Of a stretch of DNA of 11,262 nt, positions 1-11,262 are shown one piece after another. The first letter of the stretch is position 1. Each line of letters opens with the position of its first letter. The notes under the pieces were generated by a model. The model had not been told where the DNA came from. It ran no database searches and worked only from the letters and a program-made list of their open reading frames with translations. Source of the stretch: Candidatus Roizmanbacteria bacterium RIFCSPLOWO2_01_FULL_44_13 (GTDB taxonomy: Bacteria > Patescibacteriota > Microgenomatia > UBA1406 > GWC2-37-13); the NCBI GenBank assembly GCA_001789855.1, contig MGAT01000009.1, positions 1-11,262 of the forward strand. The letters run 5' to 3'. The position numbers and the translations under genes were made by a program.

Positions 1-1727
1 AGACTGTTTTGGACGGGTTAAAAAAATTGGAATATCGAGGCTACGATTCCTGGGGAATTGTCGTCAAGGACAAATCGTCCAATAAATTACAAGTCGAAAA
101 ACACGTCGGAAAAATAGGAGAAGCAACGACATCTTTACCTTCGGGTCGCATCGCCATCGGACATACCCGCTGGGCCACTCACGGTGGAGTCACCGACGAA
201 AACGCCCACCCCCATCTCGACTGTACGGAAAGAATTGCGGTAATTCATAACGGCATTGTCGAGAACTATCTAGAATTTAAAGAAAGCTTGTTAAAAAAGA
301 ACCATAAATTTTTGTCGGAAACCGACACCGAAGTGGTCGCCCATCTGGTCGAAGACGAGCTGAAAAACCATTCGCTCAAAGACGCCGTCTTAAAAGTTTT
401 CAACGGCCTTATTGGCTCAAATGCGATAGGAGTCATCGACTATGCAACGGAAACAATCGTCGCGGTAAGAAATGGTTCTCCCCTAGTCATTGGAATCGAT
501 GATACCAATGGCCAATATTTTTTGGGTAGCGACGTTCCCGCATTCCTAAAATATACCAATAAAGTCTATTTCTTGGAGGACAATGACGCAGTCGTCATCG
601 ATAAAAATAGCGTACGGCTATATGAGATAAAAACGGGTGCGGAAAAAGAATTAAAACTCCAAAATCTTGATTGGCAGTTGGAGGACGCGGAAAAAGGCGG
701 CTACCCGCACTTTCTCTTAAAGGAAATTATGGAACAAAAGGATACGATTGCTAGAGCGGCGGCCATCAACGAGAACGAACTGGCCAAGGTAGCTGATTTT
801 ATCAAACAAGGTTATAAACCGGTTTTTATCGGTTGCGGAACCGCTTCTTACTGTGCGCTCGCCAGTAAATATTTTTTTGCCAGCGCCGGAATTGAATCAG
901 AATTTTACGGCGGTTACGAATTCTCGCCTTTCTCCAAATTTATTGACGAGAAAACCGTTGTCTTGGCAATATCGCAGTCGGGAGAGACGGCCGATACGCT
1001 CATAGCAGTGCGTGCCGCCAAGGGAAACGGAGCAAAAATCGTTGCCGTCGTTAACGCCAGAGGGTCGACTTTGGAAAGATTGGCAGACATCGTTCTTCCG
1101 GTTGGCGCGGGACCGGAAATTGCCGTTGTTTCCACGAAAGCCTTTACTTCCCAACTGGCAACAATGTATCTTTTAGCGAAAGCCGCGACGGGAAAACTAA
1201 CCGAAGCCCAAAAACAAATTAAGGAATTGAAAAAAGTTTTGGCAAACTGGATGAATGACGGATTGACCGAAAAGATAATCGACATGGCCAAATCTTTACT
1301 CAAAGAAGAACACGCCTATCTTATCGGTAAACACTTGAATTACCCGGCCGCTCTTGAATTTGCCTTAAAGCTCAAAGAATCCTCTTATTTGCACGCCGAG
1401 CCCTTTGCCGCCGGAGAGCTGAAGCACGGCGTCATTACTCTAATCCAAAAAAATACGCCTTGTTTCGTCTTGGCTTCGCCGGATGAGGTTAAAGGAGAAG
1501 TTCTCTCGAGCGCCGCGGAGTTGAAGGCCCGCGGTGGGAGAATTATTGGCGTTGCCCCCTACCAAGCGGCCGAGTTTGACGAAGTCATCAAAACGCCGGA
1601 TCTCGGTGACTTGACAATTCTGCCGAATATCATCGTCGGACAGCTTTTGGGATATTATCTGGGAATCGGCCGGGGCGCCGACCCGGATAAACCGAGAAAC
1701 CTAGCAAAAAGCGTTACAGTAAAATAG
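1..1727 (+). CDS. glmS: Glutamine--fructose-6-phosphate aminotransferase (isomerizing), 5' truncated
   Basis: Cytosolic enzyme that makes glucosamine-6-phosphate from fructose-6-phosphate and glutamine, the first step towards UDP-GlcNAc. The reading frame is open from base 3 to the window edge, and the visible protein already begins inside the family motif GLKKLEYRGYDS. The true start with the catalytic Cys2 (MCGIVGY-type) therefore lies upstream, and the TTG at 9 is not the start. Seen in order: glutaminase motifs HTRWATHG (about residues 52-59 counted from base 9) and IHNGIVENY (about 79-87); first SIS domain with GCGTASY and SQSGETADT; a second SIS domain with KHLNYPAALEFALKLKE, then the HAEPFAAGELKHG motif; and the C-terminus NLAKSVTVK, which matches the usual end of the family. 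About 575 codons are present of an expected 600. The next gene follows after 3 nt in the same frame, suggesting co-transcription. Confidence 0.97.
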   Translation, partial: TVLDGLKKLEYRGYDSWGIVVKDKSSNKLQVEKHVGKIGEATTSLPSGRIAIGHTRWATHGGVTDENAHPHLDCTERIAVIHNGIVENYLEFKESLLKKNHKFLSETDTEVVAHLVEDELKNHSLKDAVLKVFNGLIGSNAIGVIDYATETIVAVRNGSPLVIGIDDTNGQYFLGSDVPAFLKYTNKVYFLEDNDAVVIDKNSVRLYEIKTGAEKELKLQNLDWQLEDAEKGGYPHFLLKEIMEQKDTIARAAAINENELAKVADFIKQGYKPVFIGCGTASYCALASKYFFASAGIESEFYGGYEFSPFSKFIDEKTVVLAISQSGETADTLIAVRAAKGNGAKIVAVVNARGSTLERLADIVLPVGAGPEIAVVSTKAFTSQLATMYLLAKAATGKLTEAQKQIKELKKVLANWMNDGLTEKIIDMAKSLLKEEHAYLIGKHLNYPAALEFALKLKESSYLHAEPFAAGELKHGVITLIQKNTPCFVLASPDEVKGEVLSSAAELKARGGRIIGVAPYQAAEFDEVIKTPDLGDLTILPNIIVGQLLGYYLGIGRGADPDKPRNLAKSVTVK

Positions 1728-1730
1728 AGT

Positions 1731-2261
1731 ATGAAGAAAAAGGCCTTGGTCGGGGCTTTGATTATTTTGCTCGCTTATATTTTTGGCGTCAACTTGTCGG
1801 ACCTAAAATCGTTTCAGAAAACTTTCTTTCCAACTCCTACTCCTACCCTATCTCCAAATCAAATTACCAAAGCCGAAGTTTTATCCGTTATCGACGGGGA
1901 TACAATCATAATCGAAGGCGAACAGAAAGTTAGATACGTCGGCATAGACTCGCCGGAAGTCGACGAGTGTTTTAGCGAGGAGGCTTTGGCAGAAAATAAA
2001 AAACTGGTTGAGGGAAAAACCATCAGATTGGAAAAAGACGTCTCGGAAAAGGACAAATACGGAAGACTTTTGAGGTATGTTTATGTTGATGATTTATTCG
2101 TCAACGAATATTTGATAAAGCGAGGGTTTGCAAAAAATATGGGAATAAAGCCGGATTTAAGATACTATCAACTATTCAAGAATGCCCAAATGGAGGCAAA
2201 AGACTTTAATCGCGGATTATGGTCTGCGTGTTTGACTTTGACACCAAAAGCGAACCAATAA
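1731..2261 (+). CDS. Membrane-anchored thermonuclease-like (SNase fold) protein
   Basis: Predicted staphylococcal-nuclease-family phosphodiesterase acting outside the membrane, probably on DNA or RNA. Residues 5-20 form a hydrophobic signal or anchor segment after MKKK, followed by a PTPTPTLSP linker (34-42). The SNase domain spans about 47-168. The active-site residues of the family are present: VIDGDT (D55, D57, T58), R68 in RYVGIDSPE with D73 and E76, and R112 in KYGR. Cysteines at 80 and 167 could form a disulfide, as expected for an exported protein. It starts 3 nt after glmS; AGAG just before the ATG is only a poor ribosome binding site. Its last 56 bp overlap the convergent permease gene. 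An anchored nuclease would suit nucleotide scavenging by a CPR-type cell, but that role is inference. Confidence 0.93.
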   Translation: MKKKALVGALIILLAYIFGVNLSDLKSFQKTFFPTPTPTLSPNQITKAEVLSVIDGDTIIIEGEQKVRYVGIDSPEVDECFSEEALAENKKLVEGKTIRLEKDVSEKDKYGRLLRYVYVDDLFVNEYLIKRGFAKNMGIKPDLRYYQLFKNAQMEAKDFNRGLWSACLTLTPKANQ

Positions 2262-3099
2262 CAATAAACAAGGCAGCCACCCAAAAATTTCCCGTTACCT
2301 TTTCGCCGATTAGTAAACTGGCGGCAATAGCGGTAAACGGAACTTGGACATAAAGAATCAGCGAGGAAAAAACCGGCGACCCGTATTTAACCGCGTATTG
2401 ACCCAACAAATAATAGAGGCTCGTTCCGACTACGCTGACATACAAAATAGAAGCAACCGAGACGAGAGAAATGTCAAATCGATTAACATCCAATAAATTT
2501 AATTCCGCAGGCAAAAATAATAAACTCGCGAGCACTGTCGTCAAATTAAAGACAGAAGTTATATACACGGGTGAATATTTTTTTTGAAGGCTTTTGGAAA
2601 AAATCAAATAAAAAGAATACGAAACCGCACCAACAAAAATCAAAACAATGCCGACAAGATTATCCAAAGACGAAAATCCAATCACGGTGCTTGAAAAGAA
2701 TAAAATCAAAGATCCTAAAAAACCCAGCAGCACTCCCAATATTTTGATCCATGTTATTTTTTCGTTGAGGACAAAATACGAGAGAATACTGACAATTATT
2801 GGAACCATAACGTAGATGAGCGTACCTATGTTAGCCGGAATAAAACGGACGGCGAGAATAAAGAGAATGATATTGATGGTAGAAAGAAGCGTCACCGGTA
2901 CAACTTCCAATATATTTTTTATATTTGGTTTTTCCTTTAAAAAAATCGGCAGTATAAAAACCAAGGCGATGACAAATCTCAACAGCGTAAAAGCAAAAGG
3001 CGGGATTGTTTGTAATCCTATTTTTATAAGAGGCACGACCGCGCTTCCTAAGATTGCTGCCAAAAAAACCGCCAATAACGCAAGCGTTGTTCCTTTCAT
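2206..3099 (-). CDS. EamA/DMT-superfamily permease
   Basis: Integral membrane protein of 297 aa, the usual length for the drug/metabolite transporter superfamily. It has about ten hydrophobic segments arranged as two EamA repeats (roughly 7-135 and 147-288). An early helix holds GSAVVPLIKIGLQTIPPF, and a later one holds VVGTSLYYLLGQYAVKYGS, typical of the second repeat. The substrate cannot be told from sequence; members export amino acids, nucleosides or other metabolites. The start codon shares one base with the stop of the upstream micro-ORF (TAATG) and lies 10 nt beyond the folC stop, so translation is probably coupled. No good Shine-Dalgarno is visible. The 3' end overlaps the convergent nuclease gene by 56 bp. 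Confidence 0.92.
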   Translation of the reverse strand: MKGTTLALLAVFLAAILGSAVVPLIKIGLQTIPPFAFTLLRFVIALVFILPIFLKEKPNIKNILEVVPVTLLSTINIILFILAVRFIPANIGTLIYVMVPIIVSILSYFVLNEKITWIKILGVLLGFLGSLILFFSSTVIGFSSLDNLVGIVLIFVGAVSYSFYLIFSKSLQKKYSPVYITSVFNLTTVLASLLFLPAELNLLDVNRFDISLVSVASILYVSVVGTSLYYLLGQYAVKYGSPVFSSLILYVQVPFTAIAASLLIGEKVTGNFWVAALFIVIGSLLVSKSNTQTIIRD

Positions 3100-3212
3100 T
3101 AATCTTTTTTATCCATCCAAAAAAGCATTGGCATTAAAATGAGAGTAAAAAGAATTCCTACCCAGCTGCTTTCGATTCCGCTTAAGACTTCTGTTGCCAT
3201 AGCGGTTATCAA
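3099..3212 (-). CDS. Putative membrane micro-ORF (33-37 aa) nested in the folC 3' end
   Basis: Small open frame in a different register from folC. From ATG at 3200 it encodes 33 aa; from an in-frame TTG at 3212 it encodes 37 aa. I prefer the TTG because GAAGG (3219-3223) sits 6 nt before it, while the ATG has no well-spaced site. The product has a short polar N-terminus (MATEVLSGIESS), one hydrophobic span (WVGILFTLILMPMLFW) and a charged tail (MDKKD), the layout of a single-pass membrane peptide. Its TAA shares a base with the eamA ATG (TAATG), a classic coupling arrangement. The overlapping folC frame here has no family-like sequence. Function unknown. It may be a genuine small protein or a leader that delivers ribosomes to eamA; chance is possible at this length. 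Confidence 0.5.
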   Translation of the reverse strand: MITAMATEVLSGIESSWVGILFTLILMPMLFWMDKKD

Positions 3213-4488
3213 CTTTAACCTTCGACCTTATTATACTATACACAGCGCTCAAAAGATAAAGGCTGCCGGTAATGGCAACGTACTTTGATTTTTTCTTCAA
3301 CAATTCCTTAACCGCTTTTTTATTGTCGGGAATAAAGATCATTTTTGAAATCTTTTTCTTTTTCAAATAGTCAACAATCATCTCTCCTTTTTCTGATTTA
3401 ATTGTCAAGTCCATCCCTTTGGTGATAAAACTTGTCACGATAATATCTGATGCGGCCGGAATAATTTCGTTGAGCATCGCTTTATATTTTTTTCCTTCCT
3501 TGAACGCGACCAGAAACGGAATTTTTTTCTTCGTTAAGTTTTTCAAACTTTTAATAAAACTCGCCATTTTTTGTTTATTGTGGGCGCCGTCGGCGATGAC
3601 GGTTCTCCCCCGTTTGACAAAGACGTCCATCCTGCCGGGAAAATGCGCTTCCAGCAATGTCCTCCTGATTTTATTTCTGTCGACTTTAAACTCGTCCCTT
3701 TCGCCTAAATGATAAAGGGCGGTAAGAGCCAAACTGCAGTTTTCTCTCTGGTATAAGGCGGGGGAATTTAATTCCAAACCTTCCAATTTTTCTCTTGCAT
3801 AAATCAAGCTGCCTTTTTTTTCTTTGACTCTTTTCTCGAATACCGACCTCACCGGCTTAACTTGCCTGTGGGTGATCAACGTATTATTTTTCTGGATAAT
3901 GCCGGATTTCTGTCGGGCGATTTTATCCAGACTATTACCGAGAATCTCTGTGTGATCCAATCCTATCCTCGTAATAACGCATAATTTATCGCTTCTTTTA
4001 ATGGTGTTGGTGCTGTCGTACAAGCCGCCTAGACCGGTCTCGACGACGGCATAGTCAACTTTGTTGTTTGCGGAAAACTGAAAAAATAAAGCAATCATCA
4101 GGTCAAAATAGGAAGATTTGCCATACCGGGATCTCTCCATCTTTGTAATCTTCGGCGCGATTTGATTTAAGGTTTCGACAAATTCTTTTTTTGAAATCAA
4201 GCGGTTATTTATCTGGCAGCGTTCCCTGATGTCGATCAGGTGCGGCGATACCGTCAAGCTTACCGTAAATCCGTGGGCGGCCAACAATTGGCTGATGTAA
4301 AAAGCAGTTGACCCTTTGCCGCTCGTCCCGGCCACGTGAACCACTTTCAATGAATTTTGCGGGTCACCCAACAAAGCCAAAAGATGGACGGCCCGTTCAT
4401 GACCGAACTGGCCGGCAAATTTTTTGTTCAGTTCAGTCGGGATATGGTCGTAAACAAATTTCAGAGCTTCACGGTACGAACCTATCAT
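3109..4488 (-). CDS. folC: Folylpolyglutamate synthase / dihydrofolate synthase
   Basis: Cytosolic Mur-ligase-family enzyme that adds glutamate to (dihydro)folates with ATP. The P-loop is at GTSGKGST (54-61). Further family motifs are SPHLIDIRER (81-90), ETGLGG (150-155), GLDHTEILG (176-184) and DGAHN (300-304). The C-terminal domain ends at GSLYLLSAVYSII (408-420), where family members normally stop. A basic tail of about 35 residues (426-459) follows and resembles no FolC sequence I know; its DNA also encodes the nested micro-ORF. The ATG is supported by GAGG 9 nt upstream. The gene starts 4 nt after the transporter stop and belongs to the same minus-strand operon. The dihydrofolate synthase activity versus polyglutamylation only cannot be separated by eye. 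Confidence 0.95.
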   Translation of the reverse strand: MIGSYREALKFVYDHIPTELNKKFAGQFGHERAVHLLALLGDPQNSLKVVHVAGTSGKGSTAFYISQLLAAHGFTVSLTVSPHLIDIRERCQINNRLISKKEFVETLNQIAPKITKMERSRYGKSSYFDLMIALFFQFSANNKVDYAVVETGLGGLYDSTNTIKRSDKLCVITRIGLDHTEILGNSLDKIARQKSGIIQKNNTLITHRQVKPVRSVFEKRVKEKKGSLIYAREKLEGLELNSPALYQRENCSLALTALYHLGERDEFKVDRNKIRRTLLEAHFPGRMDVFVKRGRTVIADGAHNKQKMASFIKSLKNLTKKKIPFLVAFKEGKKYKAMLNEIIPAASDIIVTSFITKGMDLTIKSEKGEMIVDYLKKKKISKMIFIPDNKKAVKELLKKKSKYVAITGSLYLLSAVYSIIRSKVKVDNRYGNRSLKRNRKQLGRNSFYSHFNANAFLDG

Positions 4489-4492
4489 ATTA

Positions 4493-5140
4493 TCATTCCT
4501 CTTTTCTTAACCATTTTACACCGAGATAGACAAAAGGCGTGACAATCGCCGACATAAAGCATTTTAACAACCAATACGGAATAATTATTCCCGCCAAAAA
4601 TACTAAATTATCATTGAACGGCCTGTCCAAAGCGTAAAACGCCAGGGTGATAAAAATCGCTGTGTCAAAAAAAAGCGAAATTATATTAGAAAGATTGTTC
4701 CTGAACCAAAGAACTTTTTTACCCAAGGCCTCCCTCAACCTGACAAAAATCAAAAGATCCAACATGTCGGCAATGGCAAAAGCCAAAAGCGAGGCTGCAG
4801 AAATTCTAAGCGACTGCTTGAAAATCAGATCATAGGCCGGTTCCGACGGAACAAATCTTGTTGACGGGGGTAAAACGGTAAAAAAAGCCGTCACCAGAAT
4901 AAGGAAAAAAACCATCGTTATCCCCGATCTGATCACTCCGCGGGCTTTCTCCTTACCGTGAACTTCGACGATAATGTCGTTGATCGAATAGACCAAAGGG
5001 ATTAAAAAAATCGCCACGCTGGCGTTCAAGGCAAAGCCGCCAATTTTTCCTATAGGAAATGTTTTTCCTCCCATCAGTTCGGCGACGACGATCGCGAAAA
5101 TGTAAAAAGAAATCAAAAAGTCTAATTTATTTATTTTCAT
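4493..5140 (-). CDS. yhhQ: VUT-family queuosine precursor transporter (YhhQ-like)
   Basis: Inner-membrane protein of 215 aa with about six hydrophobic segments. It matches the VUT/YhhQ family: IPLVYSINDIIVEVHGKEKAR (about 47-67, with D55) corresponds to the family's conserved D-x-x-x-E/R-x-x-G-x-x-x-AR stretch. The block RISAASLLAFAIADMLDLL (112-130) followed by RLREAL, and LSNIISLFFDTAIF (150-163, D160), match the second half. Family members import queuosine precursors such as preQ0/preQ1 for tRNA modification. ATG at 5140 is taken; a TTG at 5146 would add two residues, and neither has a clear Shine-Dalgarno. It is the first gene behind the promoter at 5238-5266 and is followed after 4 nt by folC. 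Assignment to the family is firm; the exact substrate is inferred. Confidence 0.88.
   Translation of the reverse strand: MKINKLDFLISFYIFAIVVAELMGGKTFPIGKIGGFALNASVAIFLIPLVYSINDIIVEVHGKEKARGVIRSGITMVFFLILVTAFFTVLPPSTRFVPSEPAYDLIFKQSLRISAASLLAFAIADMLDLLIFVRLREALGKKVLWFRNNLSNIISLFFDTAIFITLAFYALDRPFNDNLVFLAGIIIPYWLLKCFMSAIVTPFVYLGVKWLRKEE
4498..4501 (-). promoter_or_regulatory. Shine-Dalgarno of folC
   Basis: GAGG lies 9 nt before the folC ATG and inside the last codons of the upstream transporter. It is one of the few recognisable ribosome binding sites in the window and fixes the folC start at 4488. Confidence 0.6.
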
Positions 5141-5231
5141 GGTCAAAAATTTAATTGATAAAAGGAAAGCCGTACCGGAGTTAAACCTGAGGAGAAAAGT
5201 TGTTTAGAGGATCGGTTCTTGGATTCATATT
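5141..5231 (-). other. Predicted 5' leader of the transporter-folC operon
   Basis: About 90 nt between the predicted transcription start (near 5231) and the transporter ATG, the longest non-coding leader in the window. Queuosine-precursor transporters are often controlled by preQ1 riboswitches, so I looked for one. I could not find a convincing preQ1-I stem and A-rich tail, only short weak complementarities such as CCGGTACGG. Function undetermined. Confidence 0.35.
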
Positions 5232-5237
5232 ATCTGA

Positions 5238-5266
5238 ATAATAAAGTAAAAAAACTACAATGTCAA
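5238..5266 (-). promoter_or_regulatory. Sigma70-type promoter for the transporter-folC-permease operon
   Basis: Minus strand: a perfect -35 TTGACA (5266-5261), a 17-nt spacer and -10 TATTAT (5243-5238). This is the best housekeeping promoter in the window. Transcription would start near 5231. It lies 15 bp outside the nuclease island, so the insertion left it intact. Confidence 0.75.
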
Positions 5267-5281
5267 ATGTGTTAGTTTTAA

Positions 5282-5303
5282 ATAATGACAATTTTTATAT
5301 TTA
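5282..5303 (+). repeat. Left 22-bp direct repeat (secA-end copy)
   Basis: Matches 5945-5966 at 21 of 22 positions; the only difference is A at 5291 versus T at 5954. Read on the minus strand it gives KYKNCHY, compared with KYKKCHY in SecA, and the frame continues as LKLTHLTL to a TAG at 5257-5255. This may be the displaced old end of secA. Confidence 0.75.
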
Positions 5304-5324
5304 TTGACATTATTTATACTTTAT
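5286..5324 (+). repeat. Tandem degenerate repeat of the same unit
   Basis: Two adjacent units of 19 and 20 bp (5286-5304 and 5305-5324), both starting TGACA and ending TTTAT, with an AT-rich centre. The first belongs to the left direct repeat. The second is a more decayed copy that on the minus strand reads KYK followed by a stop. It includes the first ATG of the nuclease gene. Confidence 0.5.
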
Positions 5325-5943
5325 GATTTACTTAATTATGCAAAGAACAAAAGATAAAAGATTTAAAAAAGATTATTCTAAAGAAGATATTTTAGATTAT
5401 CTTAAAGGTGTGTATAAAATACTCAAAAAATCACCCACATATAGAGATTTAAATAATTTTCCAGGACCCTCTCCAAGAACTATTGTTAGAAGATTTGGAT
5501 TTTGGTCAACAGCTTTGAAGCAAGCCGGGATTCGCCCTCATACATATCAACTTATCAAAGGCGAACCCTCTTTTATAAGAAAAAATTGGAGAAATATGTC
5601 GGATAAAGAAATCGCACATAAATTGGGAGTTCAATCATATGTAATAAGATACTACAGAATGAATTTTAACTTATGGAAAAATAGAAAAGGAACTGCTCGA
5701 TCTACTTTCAGAAAAGAAGCGTTAAGAATTTATGGAAGCCAATGCGAAGTTTGTGGTCTTGGTATCTGTGAATGGCATCATATAATTCCTAAGTCAAAAG
5801 ATCCTAAACATTGGTGTATACTCTGTCCTTTGTGTCATGAGGTAATAACAAGAAAACTAGTAGTTATAAAAAACCGTAAAGAGTTAAGAACAAAGCTCCT
5901 ACCTTTTATAAAGGAACTTTACACAAAACTAAGAATTAATTAG
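5323..5943 (+). CDS. HNH endonuclease with homing-associated N-terminal repeat
   Basis: Predicted DNA endonuclease of 206 aa (201 aa if ATG at 5338 is used; neither start has a Shine-Dalgarno, and the second avoids the MIYLI overhang). Residues 20-70 resemble the homing-endonuclease-associated repeat, with SPTYRDLNNFPGPSPRTIVRR then FGFWSTALKQAG. Residues 88-120 look like a helix-turn-helix (MSDKEIAHKLGVQSYVIRYY). The C-terminal HNH fold has zinc pair C141/C144, catalytic-type H152-H153 (EWHHIIP) and zinc pair C168/C171 followed by H172. The position usually held by Asn (five before C168) is His163 here, a tolerated variant in some families. Codon use is strongly AT-biased, unlike all neighbours, which points to recent acquisition. 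It overlaps the convergent secA stop by 8 bp. The biological target is unknown; self-homing is inferred from the flanking repeats. Confidence 0.88.
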   Translation: MIYLIMQRTKDKRFKKDYSKEDILDYLKGVYKILKKSPTYRDLNNFPGPSPRTIVRRFGFWSTALKQAGIRPHTYQLIKGEPSFIRKNWRNMSDKEIAHKLGVQSYVIRYYRMNFNLWKNRKGTARSTFRKEALRIYGSQCEVCGLGICEWHHIIPKSKDPKHWCILCPLCHEVITRKLVVIKNRKELRTKLLPFIKELYTKLRIN

Positions 5944-8641
5944 GATAATGACATTTTTTATATTTAACGGGTTTTCCTGTTTTCGGATCAATTTTTCCGC
6001 ACCAGCAAGGATCATTTCTTCCTGGTTTTTTGGCCGGGCTTTGCGTAACCGGTGGCGCTGCCGGTTTTTCTTCCTCGCCCACCGTAGCTTTAGCGGAGGC
6101 GGGTTTTTGTTGGAAGGGATCAGTTCTCGATGCGGACTTATAAACCGCCTCTTCTTTTTTTTCCTCAACCGGCGCCACTTGAATTTCAACCTTAAACAAC
6201 CTTCTGGTTACTTCATAATTTATCTGGTTCATTAAATTTTCAAACATCGAATAGGCGGAGTTTTTGTATTCGACCAGTGGATCGAGCTGGGCGTAACCGC
6301 GAAGGTTTATCCCTTCGCGCAAATCCTCAATTGCCGTCAGGTGGTCCATCCAATGCTTGTCGATCGCGCCCAGGAATATCGACTTGACTATCTGACCCCA
6401 TAGACCGGCGCCAAATTTTTTCTCTCTGGTTTTAAATTCGTCGGAAACTTTTTCCATACAAAAGTTCATCAAACCTTCCTGATTTTTGTCTGCCAAGTTT
6501 TTATCAAAAGTTTTCTCCTCATATTCGATAATCAGTTTCAGTTCCTGTTTTAATTTTTCTTTATCATCGTCCGTCAGCGTTTCCGGGGTGGTAAAAATGA
6601 TATTTAGCAAAGAGGAAATTTCTTCTTGATAGACTTCTTCAACGTTTTCATACAATCCTTTTATGTCTTTATCACCGGAAGCGACAATTTTTCTCCGCAG
6701 CGTATAAATTATTTCTCTTTGTTTGTTTAGAACGTCGTCGAATTCTACCAGGTGTTTTCTGATGTCAAAATTAAAACCTTCTACCTTGACCTGGGCTTGT
6801 TCGATTGCCCGAGACACCATCGAATGAGTTAGGGGCTGGTCTTCCGGGAATTTCAAAAACGTCATCAAATTAGAAATTTGTTCTCCCCCAAAGATTCTCA
6901 TCAGGTCATCTTCCAAAGAAACGAAAAATGTTGACTGTCCCGGGTCGCCCTGCCTGCCGCTTCGACCCCTCAACTGATTATCTATCCTTCGCGACTCATG
7001 CCTTTCCGTACCAATGACATAGAGCCCGCCCAATTTCACGACTTCGTCGTGTTTTTTTTGCCAGTTGTTTTTTTCTTTGGTCGGTTCGCCGCCGAGGATA
7101 ATGTCGACTCCGCGCCCGGCCATATTCGTGGCAACCGTGATTGCCCCTTTTTCTCCGGCTTTGGCGATAATGGCGGCTTCCCTTTCGTGGTTTTTAGCAT
7201 TCAATAGTTCGTGGGGAACGCCTTTTTTTTTCAAAAGGCCGGAGAGATATTCGTTCTTATCAATCGAGGTGGTACCGACCAAAACCGGACGGCCGGCTTT
7301 AAAAGCATTGGCGATTTCCTCAACCACGGCGTTGAACTTTCCCGTCTCCGTCTTATATATCATATCCGCTTCGTCGCGCCTCACCATCGGCAAGTGGGTC
7401 GGCACAACCAATACATCGGTTTTATAAATCTTGTGGAATTCCTCAGCTTCGGTCGCGGCCGTCCCGGTCATGCCGGCCAATTTCTTGTACATGCGGAAAT
7501 AATTCTGAAGCGAGACCGTCGCCAAGGTTTTTGACTCCCTTTGAATTGGCACGTTTTCCTTGGCTTCGATCGCCTGGTGCAGTCCTTCGGAAAATCTCCT
7601 TCCGTGAAGGAGTCGCCCGGTGAACTCATCGACGATAATCACCTGACCGTCTTTGACGATGTAATCGCGGTCAATTTTAAAAAGAGTCCGGGCCTTGAGG
7701 GCCGCCTCGATGTGAAACAAGGTATCGAAATCTTTTTCATAGACATTGTCGACGCCGAGGATGGACTCGATTTTTTTCACGCCGCCTTCGGTCAGGCTCG
7801 CGGTTTTCAGTTTTTCGTCAATAATATAATCTTCCTTATCGGTTAGTTGGGAAACAATCGTCGCGTGGCGGTAATACTTCGAGGTGTCCTCGGCAAAGGG
7901 AGCGGAAATGATGTGGGGAGTGCGCGCCTCGTCGATCAAAACCGAATCGGCCTCGTCGATGATGGCATAGTTAAATCCCCTTTGGACTATGTCATTGCTT
8001 TGTGCCGCCATATTGTCGCGCAGGTAGTCAAAACCGAACTCGCTGTTTATCCCGTAAGTAACGTCTGCCAAATAGGCTTCTTTCCGGGTTATCGGTTTAA
8101 GGTGGCTCAACCGCCAGTCGCTTGTTTCTTCGCCCTTATATTTCGGGTCAAACAAAAAAGATTTATCGGAAATCATCGCCGCCGTGGTCATTCCTAGAAA
8201 ATCAAATATCATACCCATCCATCCGGCGTCCCGGCGGGCAAGATAGTCGTTAACCGTAACCAGGTGGGTCCCAAGGCCGGTCAAGGCGTTCAGATAGAGA
8301 GCCGGGGTAGCCGACAAGGTTTTTCCTTCTCCGGTTTTCTGTTCGGCGATTTTGCCTTCGTGCAGTCCAATCGCCGCGATCATCTGGACGTCGAAGTGGC
8401 GTTGCCCCAAGGTTCTTCGCGCGGCTTCCCGGACAAGTGCGTAGGCCCAAGGAAGATGAAAATTCAGTTTTGTCGCGTCTCCGGCTATTTCCTCTTTGAG
8501 TCTTTTAGTCTCGTGGACAAAATCGGCGTCTTTTAGGGCACGGGCCTTGTCTTCTAGTTGGTTTATTTCTTCAACCCTTTTTTTTAGCCGGTTGATTTCC
8601 TTCTGGTTAAAGTCGAAAAAACGACGTATGAATTTGAACAT
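5936..8641 (-). CDS. secA: Preprotein translocase ATPase SecA
   Basis: Motor ATPase that pushes unfolded precursors through SecYEG at the membrane. Counting from ATG 8641 (901 aa): Walker A TGEGKT near 103-108, DEAD box IIDEADSVLIDEARTP near 227-241, MTGTAATEAEEF, NMAGRGVDIILGG, the arginine-finger region RRIDNQLRGRSGRQGDPG, and the wing/scaffold motif IDKHWMDHLTAIEDLREGI. The C-terminus is a SEC-C zinc motif with C879, C881, C897 and H898, stretched by a DPKTGKP insertion. An ATG at 8656 would add MTKSL, but it lies inside a palindromic repeat, whereas MFKFIRRFFDFNQKEI is a natural SecA beginning; AAAGAG lies 4 nt before the preferred ATG. The last codons form one arm of the 22-bp direct repeat, and the stop overlaps the nuclease gene by 8 bp. 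Confidence 0.97.
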   Translation of the reverse strand: MFKFIRRFFDFNQKEINRLKKRVEEINQLEDKARALKDADFVHETKRLKEEIAGDATKLNFHLPWAYALVREAARRTLGQRHFDVQMIAAIGLHEGKIAEQKTGEGKTLSATPALYLNALTGLGTHLVTVNDYLARRDAGWMGMIFDFLGMTTAAMISDKSFLFDPKYKGEETSDWRLSHLKPITRKEAYLADVTYGINSEFGFDYLRDNMAAQSNDIVQRGFNYAIIDEADSVLIDEARTPHIISAPFAEDTSKYYRHATIVSQLTDKEDYIIDEKLKTASLTEGGVKKIESILGVDNVYEKDFDTLFHIEAALKARTLFKIDRDYIVKDGQVIIVDEFTGRLLHGRRFSEGLHQAIEAKENVPIQRESKTLATVSLQNYFRMYKKLAGMTGTAATEAEEFHKIYKTDVLVVPTHLPMVRRDEADMIYKTETGKFNAVVEEIANAFKAGRPVLVGTTSIDKNEYLSGLLKKKGVPHELLNAKNHEREAAIIAKAGEKGAITVATNMAGRGVDIILGGEPTKEKNNWQKKHDEVVKLGGLYVIGTERHESRRIDNQLRGRSGRQGDPGQSTFFVSLEDDLMRIFGGEQISNLMTFLKFPEDQPLTHSMVSRAIEQAQVKVEGFNFDIRKHLVEFDDVLNKQREIIYTLRRKIVASGDKDIKGLYENVEEVYQEEISSLLNIIFTTPETLTDDDKEKLKQELKLIIEYEEKTFDKNLADKNQEGLMNFCMEKVSDEFKTREKKFGAGLWGQIVKSIFLGAIDKHWMDHLTAIEDLREGINLRGYAQLDPLVEYKNSAYSMFENLMNQINYEVTRRLFKVEIQVAPVEEKKEEAVYKSASRTDPFQQKPASAKATVGEEEKPAAPPVTQSPAKKPGRNDPCWCGKIDPKTGKPVKYKKCHYPN
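5945..5966 (+). repeat. Right 22-bp direct repeat, within the secA 3' end
   Basis: Partner of 5282-5303. On the minus strand it encodes SecA residues KYKKCHY, including the last zinc ligands Cys and His of the SEC-C motif. After it secA has only two more codons (Pro, Asn) and TAA, which would belong to the inserted segment. Confidence 0.75.
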
Positions 8642-8650
8642 AAGGCTCTT

Positions 8651-8728
8651 TGTCATTCGAAGCGTTGCGAAGAATCTAGCGAAGCGTCAACTCCGTTGAC
8701 TAGATCCCTCGACAGGCTCGGGATGACA
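8651..8728. repeat. Palindromic dispersed-type repeat between secA and the exported-protein gene
   Basis: Two 29-bp arms, 8651-8679 and 8700-8728, pair as inverted repeats at 21 of 29 positions. They begin TGTCAT on opposite strands and end at CTAG. The centre carries a perfect hairpin, GTCAAC-TCC-GTTGAC, at 8686-8700. A further TGACA-GTGGG-TGTCA palindrome (8724-8738) runs into the stop codon of the next gene. The arms resemble the TGTCATCCCGAGC...GGGATCTAG palindromes scattered through many bacterial genomes. RNA from either strand could fold into a long hairpin, so it may also act as a partial terminator or mRNA stabiliser before secA. Confidence 0.7.
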
Positions 8729-8735
8729 GTGGGTG

Positions 8736-9416
8736 TCATTTAATAAAATACTCCTGTGGAATGAGCAAAAGTTTTTTAGCCGTATACGTATTGTCGGTAA
8801 TTTCCGGCGTTTTTTTCACCACAAAATGAATTGTATCCCCTTCTTTGATTTTAGAAAAGCCGGTCGATTCGATTTCAACGGTTTCGATATTGACGATCGA
8901 CTGTTTGGTCGCCGTCTCGATGTCGAGGGTTATTTCTTCCTTGGCGGTGGTCACCACTGTTATGGAAAAATTGTCTTTGTCGACCTCGCTCACCCGACCG
9001 ATCAAGACGAGAAAATTCTCGTCGACAAAAACGGCGTTGGCGGAAATGGTTTTATCGGTGACTACACCGGTGACGATAATATAATCGTCGGCGATAATGT
9101 TTTCGCTTTTAATTTCTTTTTTAGTCGTTCCGGCAATTTGGAAATATTTGGTCAAATCGGGGTCGAGTTTGACCTGATATTCCTCGGCGGCGTTGGTTTT
9201 TATCTTGATTACGTTGTTTTCATTTGACTGAACAAATCCCGATATCGCCTTATTATTTTTTTGTCTCAACTCTTCCACTTTGTCGGCGACTTTTTCCTTT
9301 AAAATGTCGATTGCACTCTCATCGGTTGCTTCCTGGCTAAAAACCGAGCTGGTCGCAAAAAGAGCCGAAGAAACTAAAGCCAACAGAATTATTAAATAAG
9401 CAAGTATTTTTTTCAT
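8736..9416 (-). CDS. Exported protein with two beta-rich modules, function unknown
   Basis: 226 aa. Residues 1-28 are a Sec signal peptide (MKK, a hydrophobic core, then a Ser/Ala-rich region before SQEA), and the rest is polar. A Lys/Glu-rich helical stretch (about 35-55) precedes two similar beta-rich modules. The first runs from ISGFVQSNENNVIKIKT to VTDKTISANAVFVDE, the second from LIGRVSEVDKDNFSITVVT to the C-terminus. This alternation of a short GxV strand, an intervening DNxFxI strand and a later xGDxIxxxV strand recalls DUF5666-type OB-fold repeats, but I hold that only as a suggestion. Its ATG overlaps the stop of the upstream gene by 4 bp (ATGA), so it is translated with it. The stop codon lies in the edge of the palindromic repeat. 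Confidence 0.88.
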   Translation of the reverse strand: MKKILAYLIILLALVSSALFATSSVFSQEATDESAIDILKEKVADKVEELRQKNNKAISGFVQSNENNVIKIKTNAAEEYQVKLDPDLTKYFQIAGTTKKEIKSENIIADDYIIVTGVVTDKTISANAVFVDENFLVLIGRVSEVDKDNFSITVVTTAKEEITLDIETATKQSIVNIETVEIESTGFSKIKEGDTIHFVVKKTPEITDNTYTAKKLLLIPQEYFIK

Positions 9417-9847
9417 AGTTCGGAGTCAAGGAAATAAACTTTTAAGTCCTTTTCCTGCGCTCTCATTGTCTTGTCTTTCGGATAGGCGACGATTTTTATG
9501 ACGTTCTCACCGAGCGCCAAAGGAAAATCAATTTTAAAGTTATTACTGGTCGTTCGCGCCGTCATATCGCGTATAGGAGATTGGATCACGAGGAGACTGT
9601 CTTTTTCCATCTTGCCCGTGAGAGTAATGCTGTTTTTGTCGACGATTGTCCCGTCGGAGGGGCTGGTTAACTCGAGGCCTTGGATTTGCTTTAATGGCTC
9701 ACCCAAAAGTTGTTGTTCTTTTCCTTTAGGACCGATTGCTTTATTTCGAGCCAGTTCGATATCTTTGCCTTTAAAAAGAATGAGGAGAGCGACAATCCCT
9801 CCGAGTGCTAGGCCGAAGACAATCGCAATCACCGTTTCTTTTTTCAT
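9413..9847 (-). CDS. Membrane-anchored small protein with an Ig-like (glucodextranase-B-like) domain
   Basis: 144 aa. Residues 5-25 form one transmembrane anchor (VIAIVFGLALGGIVALLILF). A linker follows, then from about 58 a beta-sandwich-like domain. LTSPSDGTIVDKNSITLTG and LALGENVIKIVAYPKD are the strand patterns seen in extracellular Ig-like/glucodextranase-B domains, which usually serve as spacers or binding modules at the surface. No catalytic motif is visible. It overlaps nnrD and the following exported-protein gene by 4 bp each (ATGA), so the three are co-translated. AAAGAG 8 nt before the ATG is a plausible ribosome binding site. Confidence 0.85.
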   Translation of the reverse strand: MKKETVIAIVFGLALGGIVALLILFKGKDIELARNKAIGPKGKEQQLLGEPLKQIQGLELTSPSDGTIVDKNSITLTGKMEKDSLLVIQSPIRDMTARTTSNNFKIDFPLALGENVIKIVAYPKDKTMRAQEKDLKVYFLDSEL

Positions 9848-10701
9848 AGCCGTAACTCTTTAAATTTTTCGGGTAATTTTTTAATTATATCTCTTACATT
9901 ATACCAATATCCCAATCCTTTAAACAGTTCCTCTGCGGTTGCCTTGAGAAGAAGAGAGGCGGCGACGGCTGAAAATAGAGCATCATTTTTGGCATAAAAC
10001 GAAACCGTCAATCCTCCCAAAACATCGCCCGTTCCTCCCTTGGTTAACCCGGCGTTTCCGCCTTCGACAACATAACTTTCGATTCCGTCGCTCAGAATAT
10101 CGACGATAGCTTTAAGCAAAATAATACAGTTGTATTTGGCGGCGGTTTCTTTGACGATTTTTTCTTTCTCCTCCAGTGTTTTGTCAATAATAGAAATGCC
10201 AAACATTTGGTCAAATTCTTTTTGGTGCGGAGTAACGATTGGTTTTTGTTTGAGGCCAAGAAGCCAACCCGGTTCCATCATCTGAAGAGCGCCGGCGTCA
10301 AAGACAAACCTTTTCTCCGGAAATTTTTTAATCAATTTTCGCGTTTCCTCCTTAGCGCGTTCCCCCTCCTTGCCTTCGCGCATCATGCCCGGGCCGACCA
10401 GGATAGCGTCGTCTTCAGCGACGTAATGGTACAAGTCTTTTTGGGGAACGATAATTCCGTTGCGGAAAACCTTTTTCAAAGAAAGGAATATTTCTTCGTT
10501 TTCCGGAGTCGAGGCGTAGTGAACCATGTCGGAAAAGTGCGAAGCCACCTCGGCTGCCCAGAGGGAGGCGGCGTGAAATAAAGAAGAGCCGCCGACAATC
10601 ATTACTTTGCCGTTTTGACCTTTATGACTTTCTTTTTCGGGAAGTTTTATTTTTCCAAAAATGGATTTTACCGATTCTATGTCAGAGGTTTTGATAATCA
10701 T
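9844..10701 (-). CDS. nnrD: ADP/ATP-dependent (S)-NAD(P)H-hydrate dehydratase
   Basis: Ribokinase-fold repair enzyme that dehydrates damaged NAD(P)HX back to NAD(P)H. The 285 aa equal the C-terminal (YjeF_C/CARKD) half of the bifunctional enzyme. KGQNGKVMIVGGS (27-39) is the typical beginning. Other motifs are GPGMMREG (103-110), TPHQKEF (157-163) and GGNAGLTKGGTGDVLGG (214-230) with the catalytic Asp226. The N-terminal epimerase (NnrE) half is absent and not next to it. The ATG at 10701 has no Shine-Dalgarno and only 20 bp separates it from divergent alaS, so its promoter must lie in or next to the alaS start. It heads the run of four minus-strand genes ending with secA. Confidence 0.93.
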   Translation of the reverse strand: MIIKTSDIESVKSIFGKIKLPEKESHKGQNGKVMIVGGSSLFHAASLWAAEVASHFSDMVHYASTPENEEIFLSLKKVFRNGIIVPQKDLYHYVAEDDAILVGPGMMREGKEGERAKEETRKLIKKFPEKRFVFDAGALQMMEPGWLLGLKQKPIVTPHQKEFDQMFGISIIDKTLEEKEKIVKETAAKYNCIILLKAIVDILSDGIESYVVEGGNAGLTKGGTGDVLGGLTVSFYAKNDALFSAVAASLLLKATAEELFKGLGYWYNVRDIIKKLPEKFKELRL

Positions 10702-10704
10702 TAG

Positions 10705-10713
10705 TGATATAAT
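10705..10713 (+). promoter_or_regulatory. Extended -10 promoter of alaS
   Basis: TGATATAAT on the plus strand is TGN followed by a perfect TATAAT (10708-10713). No good -35 is seen at 16-18 nt upstream, as is usual for extended -10 promoters. Initiation 7-8 nt downstream falls at about 10720-10721, directly before the alaS ATG at 10722. Confidence 0.6.
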
Positions 10714-10721
10714 TTTACAAT

Positions 10722-11262
10722 ATGTTGTTGACCCACGTCCAGCTTAGAGAAAAATTTGCCAAATTCTGGCAAGGCCGCGGACACCTCGAAATTCCTCCCA
10801 TTCCCCTCGTTCCCCAAAACGACCCGACGACCTTGTTTACCGGGTCGGGGATGCAGCAGCTCGTCCCCTATCTTCTCGGGGAAAAACACCCGCTGGGAAA
10901 ACGATTATACAACATCCAGCCGTGCTTCAGGAGCCAGGACATCGAAGAGGTGGGCGACAACCGCCACACGACTTTTTTTGAGATGATGGGCAACTGGTCC
11001 CTGGGAGATTACTTCAAGGAAGAGCAGTTGACTTGGTTTTGGGAATTCTTGACTAAAGAATTGAAATTTTCTCCCGACAAGCTCTCGGTGACGGTTTTTG
11101 CCGGGGACAAAAAAAACAATCTCCCTGCTGACGAGGAATCTATCAGAATCTGGAAAAAATTGGGCTTGCCGGAAAACCGAATCTTCAAATACGGCCCGGA
11201 AAAGAACTGGTGGTCAAGAGCCGGCGTCCCCGATAATATGCCCGTCGGCGAACCGGGCGGGC
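10722..11262 (+). CDS. alaS: Alanyl-tRNA synthetase, 3' truncated by the window
   Basis: Class II synthetase charging tRNA-Ala. The frame is open from ATG 10722 to the window edge, 180 codons seen of an expected 600-900. Family signatures are REKFAKFWQGRGHLEIPP (9-26), LVPQNDPTTLFTGSGMQQ (29-46, motif 1 region), FRSQDIEEVGDNRHTTFFEM (69-88, motif 2) with MMGNWSLGDYFKEE after it, and KNWWSRAG (161-168). The tRNA-recognition, editing and C-Ala domains lie beyond the window, so it cannot be told whether they are all present. There is no Shine-Dalgarno and almost no leader after the predicted transcription start. It diverges from nnrD across 20 bp. Confidence 0.95.
   Translation, partial: MLLTHVQLREKFAKFWQGRGHLEIPPIPLVPQNDPTTLFTGSGMQQLVPYLLGEKHPLGKRLYNIQPCFRSQDIEEVGDNRHTTFFEMMGNWSLGDYFKEEQLTWFWEFLTKELKFSPDKLSVTVFAGDKKNNLPADEESIRIWKKLGLPENRIFKYGPEKNWWSRAGVPDNMPVGEPGG

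Follow-up and report, generated by a model that had tools for sequence, protein, structure and literature searches.

An HNH nuclease gene at the 3′ end of secA as the likely core of a homing element that re-codes and displaces the end of its target gene

The window analysed here, a stretch of 11,262 nt from Candidatus Roizmanbacteria bacterium RIFCSPLOWO2_01_FULL_44_13 (assembly GCA_001789855.1, contig MGAT01000009.1, positions 1 to 11,262), raises the question of why the last zinc-binding codons of secA occur twice, on the two sides of a gene for an HNH nuclease. An earlier note, made from the letters of this DNA, proposed an insertion that targets the conserved codons of the SEC-C motif, duplicates them and rebuilds the end of secA, leaving the other copy on the far side. 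Matching loci in relatives support the insertion, the duplication and the rebuilt end; the note's identification of Pro-Asn-stop as the new end has to be given up. We consider it likely that the unit is a free-standing homing element of ~0.7 kb, consisting of an HNH gene with a putative promoter of its own and a re-coded secA 3′ end, which carries secA-tail sequence on both sides and displaces the native end. The features concerned, in coordinates of the window, are:

5936..8656, minus strand: secA (906 aa; stop codon 5936-5938), with SecA_DEAD, P-loop_SecA, SecA_SW and PP_bind domains.
5966..5995, minus strand: long loop of SEC-C, KIDPKTGKPV, between CWCG and KYKKCHYPN; proposed right part of the element, from the aligned genome pair G157/G296 (see below).
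5945..5966, minus strand: right 22-bp repeat, the working secA tail codons KYKKCHY, from repeat search and translation.
5323..5943, plus strand: HNH nuclease gene (PF18780); a start at the ATG at 5338 agrees best with the homologs (201 aa), and the open reading frame (ORF) is open from the ATG at 5323 (206 aa).
5304..5325, minus strand: degenerate tandem tail copy (copy A), proposed left end of the element (14 of 18 in the best match, P 0.004).
5304-5309, complement of copy A: TTGACA, a possible -35 box of the nuclease gene.
5282..5303, minus strand: left 22-bp repeat, displaced secA tail KYKNCHY (copy B), with counterparts at four other nuclease loci.
5304..5995, no strand: proposed mobile unit (~0.7 kb) of left end, possible promoter, HNH gene and re-coded secA 3′ end, from unit length across four loci.
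4493..5146, minus strand: queuosine precursor transporter gene (PF02592; TIGR00697 above its cut-off), the first gene past the displaced tail.

A repeat search of the window recovered the direct repeat pair at 5282-5303 and 5945-5966, with 21 of 22 positions identical (95%), and translation gave the reading registers that the earlier note had described: on the secA strand, the right repeat encodes KYKKCHY-PN-stop and the left KYKNCHY-LKLTHLTL, followed by TAG. Local alignment of the two repeat ends scored 39, whereas 200 shuffles reached 26 at most; on the strength of these controls and of the second tails in related loci, a chance origin of the pair was rejected. The enclosed segment (5304-5944) measures 641 bp and has a GC content of 30.6%, compared with 44.1% for the window outside 5282-5966. 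Its sole convincing (sizeable) ORF is the HNH gene, which overlaps secA tail to tail by 8 nt and whose stop codon (5941-5943) leaves a single base before the right repeat, as noted earlier. Equally in line with the earlier note, we found no gene for an integrase or other site-specific recombinase within 5304-5944. An Rfam scan of 4400-6600 returned one sub-threshold match to a different family (E 0.47) and no group I or group II intron RNA, and scans of five related loci returned nothing above threshold; the reading as an intron or known RNA element was therefore dropped.

The HNH protein of the window matches HNH_repeat (PF18780, E 1.3e-11), the homing-associated repeat that is present in all 36 aligned family members, the window copy included. 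The HNH domain PF01844 was matched in 19 of these 36, the window's own copy not being among them, and the C..C, E.HH and C..CH residues are invariant throughout. A profile search also matched, weakly, a PDB chain derived from IscB (E 0.0045). A search for the family yielded 158 proteins at E <= 1e-3, counting that of the window; names given by the source among the matches listed include Daviesbacteria and Woesebacteria.

We detected the nuclease gene in six of 373 genomes of the class (E <= 1e-10): the window's own (G000, family f1), G281 (f5), G147 and G122 (f14), and G296 and G678 (f30). The homologs in the five other carriers, which thus represent three further families, are 48-66% identical to the window protein. 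In all six carriers the gene is convergent with secA, tail to tail, and its frame overlaps that of secA, by 8 nt in G000, 4 in G281, 32 in G147, 32 in G122, 38 in G296 and 44 in G678. Hence the prediction that HNH-repeat proteins would adjoin secA 3′ ends elsewhere was borne out in other families, and relatives lacking the nuclease were found as well: it is absent from 10 genomes of the same genus that were searched whole. The G122 nuclease has a truncated N-terminus, and the G296 gene is split by ~3.3 kb (locus L101, 3984-7275). Both breaks of the G296 gene have stretches nearby that resemble each other at the protein level (NRAPLF.PRPHPRRCGARI), which suggests a repeat-bounded insertion. The count of six omits three weak matches in the class (G198, G231, G240) and matches in 12 genomes of a phylum sample besides the window's own (best E 6.4e-8); at these weak-match loci, where flanks extend only ~1.5 kb or less on each side, no secA end was picked up by our script.

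In a phylogeny of SecA from 112 genomes, computed with the tail left out (a quick tree with many weak branches), the occurrence of the nuclease requires 6 changes and that of the SEC-C loop described below requires 9. These data bear on the idea that an old HNH gene simply lies beside secA and that the duplication of secA codons is an unrelated local event. Tail duplications without nuclease do occur, for example in G682 and G656, as this idea would have it, but the scattered occurrence, the same position in four families and the co-occurrence of loop and second tails make it very improbable. The junction of nuclease and secA is probably more widespread than the loci surveyed. The C-terminal peptide of the nuclease corresponds to the antisense of a secA tail, at a match of at least 6 of 7, in 15 of the 120 family matches listed and in none of 600 internal windows; the 15 include P0003, the G147 protein, whose own tail is in the reference set. 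We relied on this stricter cut-off because a looser one discriminated weakly (24/120 family proteins versus 35/600 in the null set).

Are the two tails of the window a peculiarity of this genome? A second secA tail, on the secA strand and on the far side of the nuclease, is present in five of the six loci: KYKNCHY in the window, KYNCCHY in G281, HFKHCHYPN-stop in G147, WKKCHYPKLE-stop in G678 and KWKKCHYPASS-stop in G296. In shuffled downstream DNA the tail pattern gave at most 1 match per 242 kb. A degenerate tandem copy with TGTCAA near its end precedes the second tail in four of the five loci tested (P 0.0005-0.004), with no significant copy in G147 (P 0.70); this element, at 5304-5325 in the window, had escaped the earlier note, as had the unusual SecA loop before the right repeat. 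TGTCAA reads TTGACA on the opposite strand, at the start of the nuclease gene, where it may serve as a promoter element. In the four uninterrupted loci, TGYTGGTGYGG in secA is separated from the second tail by 705, 709, 735 and 712 bp, so the nuclease unit has a nearly fixed length. The second tail itself we infer to be the native secA end, displaced beyond the nuclease. The earlier note expected secA of an empty site to read into an end of the LKLTHLTL type. Since none of the 118 parsed nuclease-free secA ends resembles LKLTHLTL, and since the displaced copy of G147 still ends in HYPN-stop, LKLTHLTL is best read as decay. G678 has an additional tail 407 bp further on, so that at its locus (L100, 3688-4117) one displaced tail follows another, separated by a cysteine-rich open frame of 118 codons; the arrangement looks like two stacked insertions.

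If Pro-Asn-stop is not the new part of secA in the carriers, what is? We parsed secA ends in 124 of 132 loci and dropped the 8 unparsed ones (the SecA tree drops 12 further loci for short sequence). The SEC-C loop comprises 9-10 residues in all six carriers, as in CWCG-KKKSDGTPV-KYKNCHYPN, and 3 residues (SGK type) in 113 of the 118 nuclease-free ends. Loop and tail are in frame with secA in each carrier; the nuclease gene thus always lies beside a secA allele that differs from the nuclease-free one in its loop. The same type of long loop occurs in 3/118 nuclease-free genomes (G007, G047, G113). Two others, G032 and G048, have a different long loop type with CGMINA; their SEC-C end (..GKPYKYKKCGMINA..; loci L021 and L170) is of another kind, and no nuclease of the window's family was seen adjoining it. 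The association of loop and nuclease (6/6 carriers versus 3/118 non-carriers) gives a Fisher p of 1.9e-8, uncorrected for kinship. Six independent pairs can be drawn on the SecA tree, and the loop accompanies the nuclease in all six (in five for a few of the 200 pairings); the corresponding sign test has a median p of 0.031 (range 0.031-0.0625). In G003, the window's closest relative by SecA, the loop is short and the protein ends in PN, and Pro-Asn-stop is the common secA end among nuclease-free relatives; hence Pro-Asn-stop is the old end. Genomes with a PN end and no left copy, which the earlier note would have counted against an insertion, were found and simply represent the empty state. 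We conclude that the long SEC-C loop is what is new in the carriers.

A long loop could in principle be an adaptation of the host's SecA, with the HNH protein acting in regulation or defence in connection with that variant. The three nuclease-free genomes with the same loop fit such an adaptation. However, the nuclease carries a homing-associated repeat, the close relatives have short loops, and a PADLOC search matched no defence family above noise (best E 0.013), on which ground the reading as a defence system was dropped; we regard a host adaptation as barely credible.

The comparison of G157 and G296, whose SecAs are 90% identical in the C-terminal half, provides an approximation to an empty and an occupied site. 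G157 has the short loop; no nuclease was detected when the genome was searched whole, and no second tail was found. G296 has the long loop, the nuclease and a second tail at 7503. The two DNAs align up to the CWCG codons, except for a variable linker, beyond which the G296 loop is longer. From 7542, behind the second tail of G296, the sequence is similar to part of the region downstream of secA in G157.

Evidence that the nuclease has moved between families comes from identities computed over 110 shared residues and compared with those of the C-terminal half of SecA. Nucleases of the f1 and f5 carriers are 66% identical, whereas their SecAs are 50% identical. The two f14 nucleases (G147 and G122) share 56% identity and their SecAs 69%, while the G122 nuclease is 63% identical to that of the f1 carrier and 58% to that of the f5 carrier. 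In a test on the nuclease tree, a grouping of G000, G281 and G147 was marginally rejected (p 0.045). Transfer between families is likely, though not proven.

We propose the following scenario for the homing element. The HNH enzyme would cut secA alleles without the nuclease at SEC-C codons around CG-SGK/KYK.CHYP, whose conservation, maintained by the zinc motif, would make them a suitable homing target. The break would be repaired from element-bearing DNA, with homology provided on one side by the body of secA and on the other by the duplicated tail. The recipient would retain a working SecA, whose longer SEC-C loop would no longer match the cut site, and the original tail would stay beyond the nuclease gene and decay. 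Later loss of the nuclease, for instance by recombination between the tails, would leave the long loop as a scar, and G007, G047 and G113 may be such scars.

Several observations weigh against this scenario. The three putative scar genomes contain no convincing remnant of a nuclease (a single match, E 0.044), so that a loss of the gene has to be assumed for them. A nearby second tail of this type is missing from G122, whose HNH protein is truncated. In the G157/G296 pair, the counterpart of the G296 downstream sequence begins ~690 nt after the G157 tail, so the pair is imperfectly collinear. Moreover, over the 36 nt of the G157 tail, the working and second tails of G296 differ from it at 9 and 10 positions, respectively, and hence do not tell which of the two is native; the inserted secA segment is too short for phylogeny. 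The two nucleases of genus g84 are 69% identical, as are their SecAs (69%), which fits inheritance within that genus and is therefore not evidence of transfer. An approximately unbiased (AU) test does not reject a single f14 nuclease clade (p 0.36). The case for transfer consequently rests mainly on the identities among f1, f5 and f14 and on the scattered distribution. No movement was seen between near-identical strains. Lastly, of 111 nuclease-free genomes with at least 600 nt of sequence downstream of secA, 13 have tail-like copies there at a distance of up to 2.2 kb, and the second tail of the carrier G147 resembles tails that lie behind other genes.

These last two findings indicate that the end of secA attracts other insertions too. 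Ten of the 13 nuclease-free copies lie at 360 nt or more and three at 20-120 nt; some genomes (G204, G185, G156) have two or three copies in a row. The genes between, named by reading only, are Fic-like (G156), nucleotidyltransferase-like (G204) or membrane-protein-like (G185, G656). The context GGTACC..CAYTTC recurs at several of these displaced tails. A pattern describing such an end matched in 41 of 373 genomes of the class, a few matches being secA itself (as in G205, G228 and G680, where SecA reads FK at the corresponding position), and its reversed control matched in none; the second tail of G147 fits it with 2 mismatches. The secA 3′ end is also a wider insertion hotspot in genomes of the Candidate Phyla Radiation (CPR).

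Is the HNH gene then only one cargo of several, a passenger at a general integration or recombination hotspot served by an integrase in trans or by homologous recombination through the tail repeats? The tail copies in 13/111 nuclease-free genomes, with varied genes between, are the main support for this explanation, to which the common context and the second tail of G147 can be added. However, the junctions on the secA side are not alike: the loop has 3 residues in all 13 of those genomes and is long in all six carriers. In addition, the nuclease always overlaps the secA end, the unit has a near-constant length in the four uninterrupted loci, and the left boundary (..TGTCAA) is of another kind in four of the five nuclease loci tested. 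We therefore judge the passenger explanation unlikely, though a serious competitor, and take the other insertions to exploit this spot in a second way. A more inclusive picture, which we offer tentatively and would not yet favour, is that the last codons of secA in these CPR bacteria are a docking site: the HNH element would re-code the SEC-C loop for its own immunity, the duplicated tail of ~22 bp would be a homology arm portable across families and the loop a lasting scar, and other cassettes would share the principle of the displaced tail, forming arrays behind secA.

The second type of tail (GGTACC..CAYTTCAARAARTGYCAYTAYCC and variants) stands behind cargo genes, sometimes in arrays, at loci L193, L194, L195, L196, L197, L199 and L205, and by eye several of these units open with a similar ~130 nt after secA (..CCCAGCCTCA..ACCACATGG..). 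In G122 (L243, 487-18870, secA strand), three such tails occur ~8.4, 13.3 and 18.4 kb beyond secA with other genes between. G682 (L084, ~740-900, secA strand) has a second whole SEC-C motif (RNDPCWCGSGKKWKKCHYPELQ) behind an open frame of ~200 codons, followed by a third, shorter tail-like copy. In G656 (L185), a membrane-protein-like frame of 105 codons is flanked by further tail-like codons, which lie 34 nt and 360 nt past the stop codon of secA. Viral contigs yielded no relative of the nuclease, for which reason the idea of viral spread was dropped, and no exact match to one form of the second-type tail end. Directly upstream of secA in the window, positions 8650-8745 resemble an interspersed repeat (GTCATTCGAAGCG..GGGATGACA) with complementary ends, by eye.

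Among the open-licence PMC papers listed, judged by titles and starts of abstracts, we found no description of a secA-linked homing endonuclease or of a secA integration site. If our proposal is correct, it would bring a mobility strategy of fungal mitochondria to bacteria and to an essential secretion gene, with a selfish nuclease that pays for its landing with a working replacement of the gene end it breaks. It predicts that short-loop secA DNA is cut and long-loop DNA is not. The HNH family would gain a defined candidate target, sudden changes in a conserved zinc-binding motif would be explained, and secA 3′ ends would be flagged as insertion hotspots in CPR genomes.

How does such an element compare with known systems? 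Islands of the SGI1 type rebuild their target gene, are flanked by att-like direct repeats and carry a recombinase. Insertion at the 3′ end of a protein-coding gene, as at secA, is exemplified by SGI1 at trmE (PMC8409611). The secA unit differs in having no recombinase within it. In the intronless homing of T4-like phages, the allele bearing the endonuclease gene is immune. The free-standing homing endonucleases of these phages (PMC2988022) are like the secA case in being stand-alone nucleases beside their target. The secA element differs in lying on a bacterial chromosome and in carrying a re-coded end of an essential gene, and its cutting is putative. The LAGLIDADG homing endonucleases of CPR rRNA gene insertions share with it the CPR hosts and a tie to one site across distant hosts; the main text of that paper mentions neither HNH nor secA (PMC11270868).

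The anatomy of the secA element appears to be like that of fungal mitochondrial elements, from which it differs in nuclease, orientation and domain of life. The study of those mitochondrial endonucleases and C-termini is reportedly by Beaudet and colleagues. In the mitochondrial genes atp6, atp9, cox2 and nad3 (PMC3630166), an endonuclease ORF brought along a foreign C-terminus and the native end was displaced; Allomyces atp6 was the first such case. These mORF/C-terminus elements (Allomyces atp6; Glomus atp6, atp9, cox2 and nad3) thus combine, as is proposed for secA, an endonuclease ORF at the 3′ end of a gene, a foreign C-terminal segment and a native C-terminus downstream of the nuclease; their Glomus nucleases are LAGLIDADG or GIY-YIG enzymes co-transcribed with the gene (PMC3630166). 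The secA element, by contrast, is found in a bacterium and has an HNH nuclease, encoded by a convergent gene that overlaps secA, and a second tail of only ~20-30 bp.

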